This document shows positions 1 through 31,472 of a stretch of 64,000 nt of DNA, one piece after another. A model generated the notes under the pieces. It was given only the letters and a program-made list of their open reading frames with translations, was not told the DNA's origin and did no database searches. Position numbers and translations under genes: made by a program. The stretch is from Pelosinus sp. (lineage in GTDB: Bacteria > Bacillota > Negativicutes > DSM-13327): the NCBI GenBank assembly GCA_029239675.1, contig JARBUM010000011.1, forward strand, positions 1 to 64,000. Direction: 5' to 3'. Every line of letters starts with the position of its first letter. The first letter of the stretch is position 1.

Positions 1-42
1 ATAAATTTCAATTTTTTATTTATTTGGGAGGTAGATTCTTAT

Positions 43-1491
43 ATGAAAGATAGCTTGAAACCACAAGAACTTCCTACACCTACTCCTATAAATTTACGCC
101 AAAGTGAAGACAAGTTTCAATCCCTAGCCAATAATTCTCCTGATGTCATTATCCGTTTTGATAAATATCTAAATTTTATTTATGCGAATCCAGCAATAAA
201 AATTCCAACAGGTATCTCAGCAGAGAATATTGTTGGCACACAACTTTGCAATTTCCCCCTTTCACCGCAAGATTATCAATTATGGAAAACAGAAATTACC
301 AAAGTCCTTAAAACTAAAAAAAGTGTGACCTTTCAATCAGAATTTAGAAAATTTCAAAAGAGAACTTTTCATTTCCATGCCCGCTTAGTTCCTGAGATTA
401 ACTCAAATGGTTCTGTAGAATCTGTGTTGTGTACACTGCGAAATATTACAGATCTGAAACGAGCGGAACAATCTCTAAAAAAGAATCAAGCACGTATACA
501 AAACTTACTTAACGCCATACCTGATACATTATTTATCTTAGACAAAAATGGGACAATCCTCGATTATCAAGCATCTCAGGACCTTTTCCCTTCCCTTTCT
601 GCCACTACCTTTAAAAATAAAAACATCTTTGATATACTGCCTCTAATGATGCCAAAAATTATGCATTATTTTGGAAAAGCATTTACTACCAACACTATGC
701 AATCTTTCGAATTTCAATCTATAGTAGATTCAAATATTTGTTATTATGAAGGAAGAATTACCGCAAATAACAAAAATGATTTTATCTTAATCATTCGTGA
801 TATTAGTGAATTTAAACTAATGCAGCAACATTTAACTCGCTTTGACCGCTTACATTTAGTGGGTGAAATGGCTGTCAGTATTGGTCATGAGATCCGAAAT
901 CCCATGACTACCGTCCGGGGATTTTTGCAAATGTTCTCGCAACGAAATACCTTCCAAAACTATACAGATCTTTTAGATCTCATGATGACTGAAATTGACC
1001 ATGCAAATAAGATCATTAGTGAATTTATCTCCCTAGCAAAGAACAAAGCCTTGACCTTAGAATCACAAAATTTAAATGCTCTCATTCAGTCTTTGTTGCC
1101 ATTAATAGAAGCCGAAGCTATTATTACCAATAAGAAAATCTCTACCCATCTGGAACCAATTCCAAATTTTCCAATGGATGATAAAGAAATTAGACAACTC
1201 ATACTTAACATAGTCCAGAATGGTCTTGAGTCCATGTCCCCCCGCTCCCAATTAGATATTCGTACCTATCTAGAATCAGAGAAAGTAATTCTAGCTATTA
1301 AAGATCAAGGCACAGGTATAGCCCCTGAACATCTAGAAAAAATAGCTACCCCTTTCTTTAGCACCAAAGTCAATCAACTAGGCCTGGGGCTCGCTACATG
1401 CTACAACATTGCACATCGGCACCATGCTGAGATCATGTTTGACACAAGTCCATTTGGAACTACATTTTATGTGAAGTTTGATATTCCATAA
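43..1491 (+). CDS. PAS-domain sensor histidine kinase (orphan)
   Basis: A 482-aa cytoplasmic kinase with no obvious membrane segment. Two PAS-like domains lie at about residues 20-140 and 150-258. They are followed by a HisKA dimerisation domain with the H-box GHEIRNPMTTVRG (His282) and a HATPase domain with an N-box (NIVQNGLESM, about 390), a G1 box (DQGTGIAPE) and a C-terminal GLGLA motif. The start is an ATG preceded by GGGAGGT at the right distance. No response regulator is adjacent. The architecture and the H-box resemble Spo0A-phosphorelay kinases of spore formers, so it may feed Spo0F/Spo0A or a remote regulator; that part is inference. It shares its H-box with the kinase at 57676-58791. 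The signal sensed cannot be read from the sequence. Confidence 0.9.
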   Translation: MKDSLKPQELPTPTPINLRQSEDKFQSLANNSPDVIIRFDKYLNFIYANPAIKIPTGISAENIVGTQLCNFPLSPQDYQLWKTEITKVLKTKKSVTFQSEFRKFQKRTFHFHARLVPEINSNGSVESVLCTLRNITDLKRAEQSLKKNQARIQNLLNAIPDTLFILDKNGTILDYQASQDLFPSLSATTFKNKNIFDILPLMMPKIMHYFGKAFTTNTMQSFEFQSIVDSNICYYEGRITANNKNDFILIIRDISEFKLMQQHLTRFDRLHLVGEMAVSIGHEIRNPMTTVRGFLQMFSQRNTFQNYTDLLDLMMTEIDHANKIISEFISLAKNKALTLESQNLNALIQSLLPLIEAEAIITNKKISTHLEPIPNFPMDDKEIRQLILNIVQNGLESMSPRSQLDIRTYLESEKVILAIKDQGTGIAPEHLEKIATPFFSTKVNQLGLGLATCYNIAHRHHAEIMFDTSPFGTTFYVKFDIP

Positions 1492-1541
1492 TGTGGATAG
1501 TAGGGAAAGGTGCACCGCTCTCTATTACAAGCAAATTTGTA

Positions 1542-1570
1542 TTGACAAGGGAATCAGAAAAAGATAGAAT
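1542..1570 (+). promoter_or_regulatory. sigma-A promoter P1 of the pflB leader
   Basis: TTGACA at 1542-1547 and TAGAAT at 1565-1570 are separated by exactly 17 bp. This would start transcription near 1577, just upstream of the riboswitch aptamer. It is the best consensus promoter in the leader. Confidence 0.75.
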
Positions 1571-1599
1571 TTGTTTCATAAGAAAGATTTGATAAATTC

Positions 1600-1680
1600 A
1601 TAAAACAAATGCAGAACTGGCGGAGAGTGGAATAACCACAAGGGACTGTATTTTGCGATTAGCCGACCGCCTGGGCATAA
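1600..1680 (+). promoter_or_regulatory. ZTP (ZMP) riboswitch, 'pfl' motif
   Basis: The conserved blocks of the pfl RNA motif are present in order: AACTGGCGG at 1615-1623, the GTGG...AACCACAAGGGA hairpin segment at 1627-1645, and GCCGACCGCCTGGGCA at 1662-1677. In the known family this aptamer senses ZTP/ZMP (10-formyl-THF shortage) and turns on one-carbon genes, including pfl, which gave the motif its name. Here it precedes pflB and its 3' conserved block is also the 5' arm of an intrinsic terminator. Ligand binding should therefore prevent termination (an ON switch). Confidence 0.88.
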
Positions 1681-1710
1681 CTTGATTTGTTATGCTCAGG
1701 CGGTTTTTTT
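1667..1710 (+). terminator. riboswitch expression-platform terminator
   Basis: The 15-bp stem CCGCCTGGGCATAAC (1667-1681) pairs with GTTATGCTCAGGCGG (1689-1703) with one G-T pair, followed by seven T residues. The 5' arm contains the conserved CCGCCTGGGC of the ZTP aptamer, so aptamer and terminator are mutually exclusive. Confidence 0.9.
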
Positions 1711-1750
1711 ACTGTAAAAAAACTAAATTTATAATAAAAGTTATTAAGTA

Positions 1751-1793
1751 TATGATATATATCATAGGCAAAGTAAAAAAATATAGTTATAAT
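1751..1793 (+). promoter_or_regulatory. second pflB promoter P2 with Fnr/Crp-type palindrome
   Basis: TATAAT at 1788-1793 has no good -35 box, but a perfect 16-bp palindrome TATGATATATATCATA lies at 1751-1766. Its centre (1758.5) falls at -41.5 relative to a start near 1800. This is the position used by class II Crp/Fnr activators. The half-site ATGAT-N4-ATCAT differs from the Fnr consensus TTGAT-N4-ATCAA at one base per half. P2 would bypass the upstream riboswitch terminator. Confidence 0.55.
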
Positions 1794-27920: not shown

Positions 27921-29195
27921 TTAGATTCCTAGAGCCCTAATTAGTTCATCCATAAATTCAGGCATTAACGTAGAAGCTAATAACATGAGAGTTAATACTA
28001 TTAATGCAACGGTAAAAGTCCATGAAACCACATTGTACCATGAAGAATTAACATAGCTACCCATAATATTTTTATTATTGGCGATCAGCACCATAAAAAT
28101 AAGAATAGGCGGTAAGAGTACGCCATTAATCACCTGAGAAGTCAGCATCACTTGATATAATGACAGGTCTGGCCATAGTACTAATCCTGCACCAATGACA
28201 ATCAAGGCCGTGTATAAACCAAAAAAAGCAGGGGCTTCTTTGTAGGTTTTACTAACGCCACGTTCAAAGCCTAAAGCTTCACAAACAGCATAAGCAGTAC
28301 TAAGTGGCAAAATAAATGCTGCTAACATAGAAGCTCCTAATAAACCAAAAGAAAATAGCATACTTGCATATTCACCAGCCATAGGTTTTAATGCCAGAGC
28401 TGCATCCTTTACCGTTTCAATGGAAATTTGATTCACATATAAAGTAGCTGCCGTTGCTACAATAATAAAAAAGGCAATCAACCAAGTAAAGAACGCACCA
28501 AACATAACATCCCAAAAGGTATATTTATAATCTTCCGCAGTGATTCCTTTGTCAACAATGGATGCCTGAACATAAAACTGACCCCAGGGAGTAATGGTAG
28601 TACCAATGACACCAATTGCCATAATGAGAAAGTCAGTATCATGTGAAAAGCTAGGTGTGATCGAAGCCACTAGTACTTCTCCCCATGGTGGATCTATAAT
28701 GACACCTGAAATAACATAGCTTAAAAAAGTAGCACACAACACTAAAAAAATCTTTTCGATCTTACCATAATCCGCTTTGAGAACTAGCCACCAAATTAAT
28801 ACGGCCATAATTGGCACTGCAATATATTTACTTACACCAAAAATTTCAAAACTAGTAGCAATACCAGAGAACTCGGATGCCGTAGTACCAATATTGGCAA
28901 TTAACAATACACTCATGGCGAAAAAGGTCCACTTGACGCCAAATAATTCACGAATTAAATCCGATAACCCTCGCCCTGTAACAGCGCCTGTCCTTGCTGA
29001 TATCTCCTGGGCAATCGCCAAACAGATACTGCTGACTAGTACAATAAATAATAGTCCATACCCATACTTTGCTCCTGCGGCAGCATAGGTAGCAATACCA
29101 CCAGCATCATTATCAGCAAATGCTGTGACGATACCTGGGCCCATGACGGCAAAGAATAGGCCTAACCGTTTACGCATATCTTTTATTATATTCAT
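27921..29195 (-). CDS. Nramp-related divalent metal transporter, probably Mg2+ (NRMT-like)
   Basis: 424 aa with about eleven transmembrane helices and the Nramp fold. Its metal site is altered. In helix 1 the usual DPGN is DAGG (within AFADNDAGGIATY), keeping Asp but losing Asn. In helix 6 the usual A-x-x-MPH is TTITPWGQ, losing the Met that selects transition metals and the following His. Such changes are known from the NRMT clade, which carries Mg2+. The context agrees: it follows an MgtE-N/CBS protein by 2 bp and the operon leader holds two M-box Mg2+ riboswitches. The ATG has GGGGGCG 6 nt upstream. Confidence 0.85.
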   Translation of the reverse strand: MNIIKDMRKRLGLFFAVMGPGIVTAFADNDAGGIATYAAAGAKYGYGLLFIVLVSSICLAIAQEISARTGAVTGRGLSDLIRELFGVKWTFFAMSVLLIANIGTTASEFSGIATSFEIFGVSKYIAVPIMAVLIWWLVLKADYGKIEKIFLVLCATFLSYVISGVIIDPPWGEVLVASITPSFSHDTDFLIMAIGVIGTTITPWGQFYVQASIVDKGITAEDYKYTFWDVMFGAFFTWLIAFFIIVATAATLYVNQISIETVKDAALALKPMAGEYASMLFSFGLLGASMLAAFILPLSTAYAVCEALGFERGVSKTYKEAPAFFGLYTALIVIGAGLVLWPDLSLYQVMLTSQVINGVLLPPILIFMVLIANNKNIMGSYVNSSWYNVVSWTFTVALIVLTLMLLASTLMPEFMDELIRALGI

Positions 29196-29197
29196 TT

Positions 29198-30487
29198 TTA
29201 TCGCCCCCGCCCTGCCGTTTTTGTTAGTGCAAACCAGGAGTATGTATCTAGTTTTCCACGTTCTGGCATTAGTATATCAAGAACATCATCCACTGTAACA
29301 ATTCCTACCATAATATTATTCTCATCAACTACAGGTACAGCTAGTAAGCTATACTTATTAATAACTTCTGCCACTTTCTGATAATTGTCCTCATCTTGTA
29401 CTACAGCAACTTTTGTATGCATCAAATCTTCCAGCGTAGTTTGAGGGGCTGCGACAATTAATTCCCTCAAGGAAAGAACCCCTTGAAGATGTTCCGCCTC
29501 ATCCATTACATATAAATAATAAATCGTTTCCGCTGTCGGTGATAATTCTCGCAATTGATTAATTGCTTCTTCAGCTGTAATATGTGAAGAAAACGCAATA
29601 AATTCATTGGTCATTAATGCTCCAGCAGTACCTTCCTCATATTGCATGAGTTCCCTAACATCTTCGGCATCATCGCTTTCCATCAATTGCAATAAGCCTT
29701 CCGATTTTTCCGTAGGCAACTCGCCAAGAATATCAGCGGCTTCATCTGGCGCCATTTCTTCTAGAATATCAGATGCCCGCTGTGCATCCATTTGTTCAAT
29801 AATCTCTACCTGTGTATCCAAGTTCAATTCTGCTAAGGTGTCAATAGCTTGCTGGTCATCCAGATTTTCTATAAAATTAGCACGTCGTTTATAATCCATT
29901 TCTTCCACTAAATCTGCAATATCTGCAGGATGCAGTTCTGTCAACTGCTGTTTCATACGATTCAGCTGAAGGTTTGAATTCCAACTTTCCAATGGTTTAA
30001 TAAACTCCAAGACCAGCCAATTTTGTTTAAACTTTGTAAAGAGAAATTCTAAACCCAATCGTCTAAATAAACCACGCACACCAATATCAACAGCTATTAA
30101 TACCATATGTTGTTTTCCATCCTGAAGGACCCAAGACAAGATAATATCGTTTACCCTTACCATCTTAGAACCTTTTAAATCAATAATCTGTTTATCCAAC
30201 AACCATTTACTGGCATAAATATCACTTTCAAGCAACGGAATCGTTTGATTTACATTAAAATCCCCTGTAAGTTTTACCTCATAATTATCTTTTAATGCAA
30301 TCCATTCAATAGGAATCAAATTATGTATTTTATTTGCGTATTTGATACCTATTACTCGCGGATAAACGCCATCCCAGCGTACTGCAATGTCCTTTATTCG
30401 ACCAAAAGTATTGCCATTTATATCATAAATCGGCTGACCGATAAGTTGGCTAAAGTAGAATTCGCCTACCATTTTTACTTCATGCAT
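29198..30487 (-). CDS. PRC-barrel / MgtE-N / CBS protein without a membrane domain
   Basis: 429 aa, soluble. Two PRC-barrel-like segments (about 10-80 and 90-165) precede an MgtE N-terminal superhelical domain (about 185-285; LHPADIADLVEEMD, MAPDEAADILGELP, LMQYEEGTAGALMTNEF). A pair of CBS domains follows (about 295-410). In the Mg2+ channel MgtE the N and CBS domains bind Mg2+ and gate the pore, but here no transmembrane domain follows. The very next gene is an Nramp-related transporter, so this protein may be its detached Mg2+-sensing gate; that is inference. The ATG has GGAGG 8 nt upstream. Confidence 0.88.
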   Translation of the reverse strand: MHEVKMVGEFYFSQLIGQPIYDINGNTFGRIKDIAVRWDGVYPRVIGIKYANKIHNLIPIEWIALKDNYEVKLTGDFNVNQTIPLLESDIYASKWLLDKQIIDLKGSKMVRVNDIILSWVLQDGKQHMVLIAVDIGVRGLFRRLGLEFLFTKFKQNWLVLEFIKPLESWNSNLQLNRMKQQLTELHPADIADLVEEMDYKRRANFIENLDDQQAIDTLAELNLDTQVEIIEQMDAQRASDILEEMAPDEAADILGELPTEKSEGLLQLMESDDAEDVRELMQYEEGTAGALMTNEFIAFSSHITAEEAINQLRELSPTAETIYYLYVMDEAEHLQGVLSLRELIVAAPQTTLEDLMHTKVAVVQDEDNYQKVAEVINKYSLLAVPVVDENNIMVGIVTVDDVLDILMPERGKLDTYSWFALTKTAGRGR

Positions 30488-30692: not shown

Positions 30693-30866
30693 TGACCTTC
30701 CCCAATCGTTGAGTTTCGGCACTGCATAACGTAGAGGTATTATTATCCTCAGCCACCTTAAGTAAAACCTTAATTCGGTAATACCTGTTCTACCCATTGG
30801 CGTCTTTCGACGTTTCCGGGCAGTGGCCTATGTTTATACAGGAGCCTCACCTAACGAAGAAGTTCT
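30693..30866 (-). promoter_or_regulatory. M-box (ykoK) Mg2+ riboswitch, proximal copy
   Basis: On the minus strand the M-box blocks are in order: CTTCGTTAGGTGAGGCTCCTG at the 5' end (first 20 bases conserved), CACTGCCC, GACGCCAATGGGT, TTAAGGTGGCTGAGG, CTACGTTATGCAGTGCC and AACTCAACGATT before P1 closes with GGGGAAGG. High Mg2+ should stabilise P1 and free the downstream terminator, shutting off the transporter operon. Confidence 0.92.
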
Positions 30867-30956: not shown

Positions 30957-30982
30957 TAAAAGCCCCCGTTACCGGAAGGCTT
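30957..30982 (-). terminator. terminator of the distal M-box
   Basis: On the minus strand AAGCCTTCCG, loop GTAA, then CGGGGGCTT and a T-rich tail. CCTTCC in the leading arm can alternatively pair with GGAAGG of the distal M-box P1, the same switch logic as in the proximal copy. Confidence 0.75.
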
Positions 30983-31003: not shown

Positions 31004-31182
31004 CACACCTTCCCCACTCGTACGAGTTTTGGCACTGCATAACGTAGAGTACAAGCTAAAAATCCCTCAGCCACCTTAAGTAAAACCTTAATCCGGTAGT
31101 ACCTGTTCTACCCATTGGCGTCTCTCGACATTTCCGGGCAGTGGCCTATGTTTATGCAGGAGCCTCACCTAACGAAGAACTA
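31004..31182 (-). promoter_or_regulatory. M-box (ykoK) Mg2+ riboswitch, distal copy
   Basis: A second full set of M-box blocks: TTCGTTAGGTGAGGCTCCTG, CACTGCCC, GACGCCAATGGGT, TTACTTAAGGTGGCTGAGG, CTACGTTATGCAGTGCC and AAACTCGTACGAGTGGGGAAGG. It is nearly identical to the proximal copy in the conserved core but different in the loops, and lies about 135 bp further upstream on the same strand with its own terminator. Confidence 0.92.
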
Positions 31183-31472
31183 TTTCTCTACTATGAGCGT
31201 ACTACCTTTAAAGAAATGTGTCAATACCTATTTCACTTTTCGTCAAATCTTTAATTTGCCTATTAAGTTGATCTTCAATCACAAAAATGCTCAGCAATAG
31301 CGATTATGTCTGTAAATCTCCCTGTATATCTATATTTATCTCTTTTTCTATATAATATACATAATCACATGACTTTCAATTCTATTTTATACTCTTCCCG
31401 GGAAAAAAACAGTTCACAAAATCCTTAGAAAGAAAAACGCTACACTTTCTTTAAAACATATAAAACATAATC

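Follow-up and report, generated by a model that had tools for sequence, protein, structure and literature searches.

The window, that is, the whole stretch of DNA analyzed here (64,000 nucleotides of a Pelosinus sp. contig, JARBUM010000011.1), carries on its minus strand, at 27921-30487, an operon of two genes, the first encoding a soluble protein (hereafter the partner) and the second an NRMT-type transporter. Its features, in the order of transcription, are as follows.

31352-31379, minus strand: candidate promoter of sigma-70-like type (TTGAAA-16-TATTAT), ahead of the two M-boxes and matching by consensus only
31006-31183, minus strand: distal M-box Mg2+ riboswitch aptamer (RF00380), full length, 163.2 bits against a gathering score of 44
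30960-30982, minus strand: terminator-like hairpin with a T-rich tail, downstream of the distal M-box
30694-30865, minus strand: proximal M-box Mg2+ riboswitch aptamer (RF00380), full length, 161 bits against a gathering score of 44
29198-30487, minus strand: soluble partner gene, an ORF of 429 aa
27921-29195, minus strand: NRMT-type Nramp (SLC11 fold) gene, predicted Mg2+ transporter, an ORF of 424 aa

A gap of 2 bp separates the partner stop codon from the NRMT start codon, and the ORF coordinates agree with the first-pass annotation, which had placed an MgtE-type gene at this spacing upstream of an Nramp gene. The two M-boxes are arranged in series ahead of the operon, and as both matched RF00380 above the gathering score, the earlier description of an M-box-controlled Mg2+ operon was upheld. 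The promoter is less distinctive, the scan having returned 19 candidates where 15.1 were expected in shuffled sequences. The nearest relatives are Pelosinus genomes. The tandem M-box leader was also present in the six other genomes of the window genus having the locus (split across contigs in one of them), and it was absent from every other paired locus examined. A further riboswitch of the window, a ZMP/ZTP aptamer (RF01750, 62 bits) at 1603-1683 on the plus strand, precedes a formate-acetyltransferase-like ORF starting at 1798, which is the ordinary pfl arrangement.

The transporter matched the Nramp family of Pfam (PF01566, 2e-98), and its best solved relative was EleNRMT of Eggerthella lenta (7qia, E 3e-110), the next Nramp following at 9e-30. 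NRMT proteins are marked by DxxG in TM1 and TxxA/T in TM6 (PMC8806188). The window transporter bears this DxxG-TxxA/T signature, its metal-site motifs being DAGG (D-x-x-G) and TTIT-PW (T-x-x-T); the replacements read in the first pass, DPGN to DAGG and A-x-x-MPH to TTITPW, are thus present as described. It shares the clade and the DxxG plus TxxA/T site with EleNRMT (7qia, 7qic, 7qji, 7qjj), from which it differs in having TxxT in place of TxxA. Canonical Mn2+/Fe2+ Nramps of the MntH type (DPGN, MPH) have the same fold and Pfam family, but they differ in metal-site residues, form a separate clade and have no adjoining partner gene in the genomes examined. In our tree, the window transporter fell inside the NRMT group and the DPGN Nramp of the same genome in the other group, on branches with SH-aLRT support of 100. 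The phylogenetic check proposed with the NRMT-clade claim therefore separated the transporter from the Mn2+/Fe2+ Nramps, and its similarity to EleNRMT together with the tree placement ruled out an ordinary MntH. By analogy with EleNRMT and Ca_c0685, the window protein would transport Mg2+. That it carries Mn2+ or Fe2+ instead, with the partner sensing that metal, is very improbable: Mn2+ is also transported by EleNRMT (PMC8806188) and the paired protein of A. capsulatum rescued an Mn2+ import mutant (PMC4072509), but the signature, the phylogeny, the two M-boxes and the separate canonical DPGN Nramp encoded in the genome all speak for Mg2+.

Loci of this kind were described by Shin et al. in 2014 (PMC4072509), who reported M-boxes upstream of Nramp-related genes, demonstrated that Ca_c0685 and Ca_c3329 take up Mg2+, and introduced the name NrmT for the group. 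They noted that most members are accompanied by a neighboring gene for a homolog of the cytosolic domain at the MgtE N terminus, which they proposed to act in cytoplasmic feedback or as a chaperone. In the same study, the transporter alone restored Mg2+ uptake, so that complementation did not require the MgtE-like partner; rescue did not visibly change when the A. capsulatum partner was co-expressed, and the A. capsulatum transporter, though paired, appeared to carry Mn2+. EleNRMT on its own is active in transport in vitro (PMC8806188). The window operon has both the adjacent MgtE-N-like gene and the M-box leader of that group, and with NrmT of Clostridium acetobutylicum (Ca_c0685, Ca_c3329) and relatives it shares the NRMT-type Nramp, the M-box control and the adjacent gene resembling the MgtE cytosolic domain. 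It differs from C. acetobutylicum in that the MgtE-like gene, split in two there, is a single gene with a PRC tandem, and in that the leader holds two M-boxes in series. Given the 2014 proposal and the DxxG-TxxA/T match, the trans-control hypothesis, presented as new in the first-pass annotation, repeats an earlier idea, and the locus adds one more member to the group. Our search of the later literature found no paper that settles what the MgtE-like gene next to NrmT does. What is new here is the residue evidence and the gene survey given below, which support the hypothesis that the sensor may control the importer from outside the membrane.

Pfam matches of the partner consisted of PRC (5e-5, residues 8-65), MgtE_N (4e-28, residues 185-285) and CBS (1e-17, in two stretches at about 290-407). 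Since the protein has no membrane domain, the description of an MgtE_N and two-CBS module lacking the channel domain holds. As for the two PRC barrels also claimed, one copy was above the Pfam cut-off, and a second PRC-like repeat (about 85-168) was too divergent for Pfam to reach. When the profile of residues 4-76 was compared with that of 85-168, the probability was 87.8% (E 3e-6, 31 columns), so that two PRC barrels are likely. The best solved relative was the cytosolic domain of Thermus thermophilus MgtE (2yvy, E 2e-43). An AlphaFold model built from 11 sequences was weak (mean pLDDT 61, pTM 0.34) and showed no more than the PRC strand pattern and the MgtE_N superhelix.

In TtMgtE, Mg2+ is bound at Mg4 (D91/D247), Mg5 (D226/D250), Mg6 (D95) and Mg7 (E59), and at Mg2 and Mg3 on the plug helix (E258, D259) (PMC5882242). 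Alignment revealed that partner residues D248, D252, D401 and D216 correspond to D91, D95, D247 and E59, respectively. Across 59 proteins of the partner family, the D91, D95 and D247 positions were kept in nearly all, divergent actinobacterial members included, and the E59 position was acidic in nearly all. At the D226 position of Mg5, most paired partners have S, G or N, and a short variable tail stands in place of the plug helix and its Mg2/Mg3 ligands; in the window partner, the C-terminal tail beyond CBS2 is unrelated to MgtE. The D91, D95 and D247 positions were also among 33 near-invariant columns over 47 paired proteins from several phyla. Compared with the MgtE cytosolic domain (2yvy, 2yvx, 2oux), the partner thus shares MgtE_N, the paired CBS domains and the Mg4/Mg6/Mg7 ligand positions, but it lacks the membrane domain, the plug helix and D226 of Mg5, has L in place of F227, and carries an extra PRC tandem at its N terminus. 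Retention of the Mg4/Mg6/Mg7 acids with loss of the plug helix indicates that the sensing half has been constrained and the half contacting the MgtE channel has not, a residue pattern that fits a protein still closing on Mg2+ and no longer pushing an MgtE plug. With regard to the ATP contacts of MgtE (PMC5529423), Y170 and R187 are kept in partners outside the actinobacteria; ATP binding is uncertain, because the stacking residue F227 is mostly L.

To see how specific the pairing is, 150 genomes of the class to which the window belongs were surveyed. NRMT was carried by 42 of them (44 genes), and 41 of these 42 also encoded a partner; one genome had a partner without NRMT and 107 had neither, counts that ignore relatedness. 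Inspection of the neighborhood of NRMT was what revealed the shortest partners, so a hypergeometric value computed for the co-occurrence is not to be taken as a probability. The partner was directly upstream of 33 of the 44 NRMT genes, with one more pair cut by contig ends, and an M-box directly preceded the gene or pair in 31 of the 44. In a second sample, of 149 Bacillota genomes, all 14 NRMT-signature genes had the partner directly upstream, and none of 14 other Nramp homologs (canonical DPGN genes, a DTDAGS type and YcsG-like genes beside 5-oxoprolinase genes) had a partner gene of its own. Pairs were also found on plasmids of Alicyclobacillus, Citrobacter/Serratia and actinobacteria; the Nramp gene precedes the partner in the Citrobacter/Serratia and actinobacterial ones, and all plasmid-borne NRMTs keep DNDAG[GA] and GTT[IV]APW. 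The gene-neighborhood check proposed in the first pass therefore showed a pairing conserved in other genomes of several phyla. Among the open frames of about 300 genomes, none was seen that joins partner and NRMT in one chain.

The survey also bears on the relation of the partner to MgtE itself. The MgtE membrane domain (PF01769) was absent from the partner and from the whole window genome (89% complete), as well as from all 42 NRMT genomes of the class. A partner serving a detached MgtE channel is thereby ruled out, and we give next to no credence to the broader reading in which it is a decayed MgtE that has lost its channel, or the gate of an MgtE pore encoded elsewhere. MgtE_N and CBS are clearly of MgtE type, which speaks for that reading, but besides the missing channel domain it has to accommodate open reading frames, ligand sites conserved across phyla and an added PRC tandem.

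Natural variants suggest which part of the partner meets the transporter. In three genomes of two families, the gene adjoining NRMT encodes a partner of about 265-275 aa (one ORF was called longer) in which the PRC tandem is present, the N domain is reduced, CBS is absent and the D91/D95 positions are lost (L077, L078, L083); no M-box precedes any of the three. It seems that Mg2+ feedback on transcription and on the protein disappeared jointly there, with the PRC part retained. Because PRC remains in partners without a sensor, the tandem is the part likeliest to touch the transporter, and would be the docking part. Near-invariant PRC residues across phyla were S13, G29, D33, P43, D103, D114, D134, R142 and R143. 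This conservation, with persistence of the tandem beside NRMT where CBS and the Mg2+ ligands are gone, would also suit a factor that uses its PRC barrels in the assembly, stability or membrane positioning of NRMT, and whose MgtE-derived half does no more than tune or stabilize it. Such a role is rather unlikely in our judgment, since a pure scaffold leaves the near-invariant Mg2+-bridging acids of full-length partners unexplained and NRMTs work without a partner in other hosts (PMC4072509).

A second kind of variant was found in three families in which NRMT is unpaired and has its own M-box in eight of nine cases. The same families possess a PRC-MgtE_N-CBS relative, 40-44% identical to the partner, in an operon of the order era - partner - DUF502 - CNNM/CorC (L064-L072). 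A recent move of the adjacent partner gene does not account for this relative, as it formed a clade of its own (support 100), separate from the clade of paired partners in the class, and it represents an old subfamily. NRMT is encoded in eight of the nine genomes with this subfamily, and no genome among those examined had both kinds of partner. In Tsukamurella, the partner is directly ahead of a DUF1003 gene. These two arrangements speak for a general cytoplasmic Mg2+ sensor or chaperone with targets beyond NRMT, such as CNNM/CorC or DUF1003 membrane proteins. We nevertheless hold this to be improbable; the co-occurrence with NRMT means that the subfamily may serve NRMT from a distance, and neighborhood alone does not show the target.

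The best explanation for the operon, and one that we consider reasonably probable, is a two-layer Mg2+ feedback including a sensor that acts in trans. At high cytoplasmic Mg2+, the tandem M-boxes would fold and transcription would stop, and the PRC-MgtE_N-CBS partner, sensing Mg2+ in the manner of the MgtE cytosolic domain, would act on NRMT already made. Via the conserved acids, Mg2+ ions may link the N domain of the partner to its CBS domains, and the compacted partner, docked on NRMT by its PRC tandem, would damp the transporter from the cytoplasmic side. Mg2+ binding by the partner, its contact with NRMT and inhibition at high Mg2+ are each predicted. In favor of this explanation are the specific pairing with NRMT, which recurs on plasmids, the constrained Mg2+ ligands of the sensing half, and the M-boxes ahead of 31 of the 44 NRMT genes or pairs. 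That no MgtE channel exists in the NRMT genomes means that the partner is not serving a separate MgtE pore. Counting against trans feedback are the activity of NRMT alone in published assays (PMC4072509, PMC8806188), the lack of a visible effect of the co-expressed A. capsulatum partner and the apparent Mn2+ transport by its paired transporter (PMC4072509), the three pairs whose partners lack CBS and the Mg2+ ligands, and the three families with unpaired NRMT and a partner-like gene elsewhere. Function without the partner fits an inhibitory regulator, and equally a dispensable helper.

A further step, for which we see some possibility, is that the partner works as an independent and portable sensor subunit for Mg2+, in which a PRC dock and an MgtE-derived N/CBS sensor control an SLC11-fold carrier in trans, and that relatives of it have been joined to further Mg2+ proteins, CNNM/CorC for instance. 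If so, an Nramp-fold carrier would be under allosteric control by a sensor common to an unrelated channel, and the docking and sensing halves would be separable in evolution. If the sensor acts in trans, the Mg2+-gating module of MgtE would be transferable between unrelated transport folds. The ligand residues, the sensor-less variants and the lineage with the gene in another operon make the role of the MgtE-like gene directly testable.

Several single loci were also noticed. On the conjugative plasmid pPSV of Citrobacter freundii, the pair (L111, 1949-4724, plus strand) adjoins genes for a regulator of the ArsR type and for a P-type ATPase for heavy metals, and the same holds for Serratia marcescens (CP068396.1). 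In L013 (491-2794, plus strand), the partner is followed by an MntP-like gene in place of NRMT, and in L097 (4784-8052, plus strand), the NRMT frame is broken by an inserted segment with a 591-aa ORF on the opposite strand. In L079 (3511-4824, plus strand), a second NRMT-like gene stands without a partner behind tandem M-boxes of its own (G012:C1:465884-466059 and 466138-466311); its product has the motifs DNDAGA and GTTIAPW and shares about 33% identity with the window NRMT. An apparently split partner in genome G033 (L093) is probably an assembly gap, as the sequence contains an ambiguous residue.

Most other M-boxes of these genomes are directly upstream of a two-gene ABC transporter, possibly an Mg2+-linked importer; we found no paper linking an M-box with such a transporter. 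It consists of a two-domain permease of ~580 aa (PF00528 twice), nearest to nitrate/taurine permeases with matches below the cut-off, and an ATPase of ~426 aa with an AAA_assoc_C domain (PF09821). An M-box preceded the ABC genes in 13 of the 17 class genomes with PF09821. Loci of this arrangement are L146, L147, L148 and L161 in the window genus and L149-L152, L154-L156, L158 and L081 (upstream of 22-1764, minus strand) elsewhere.
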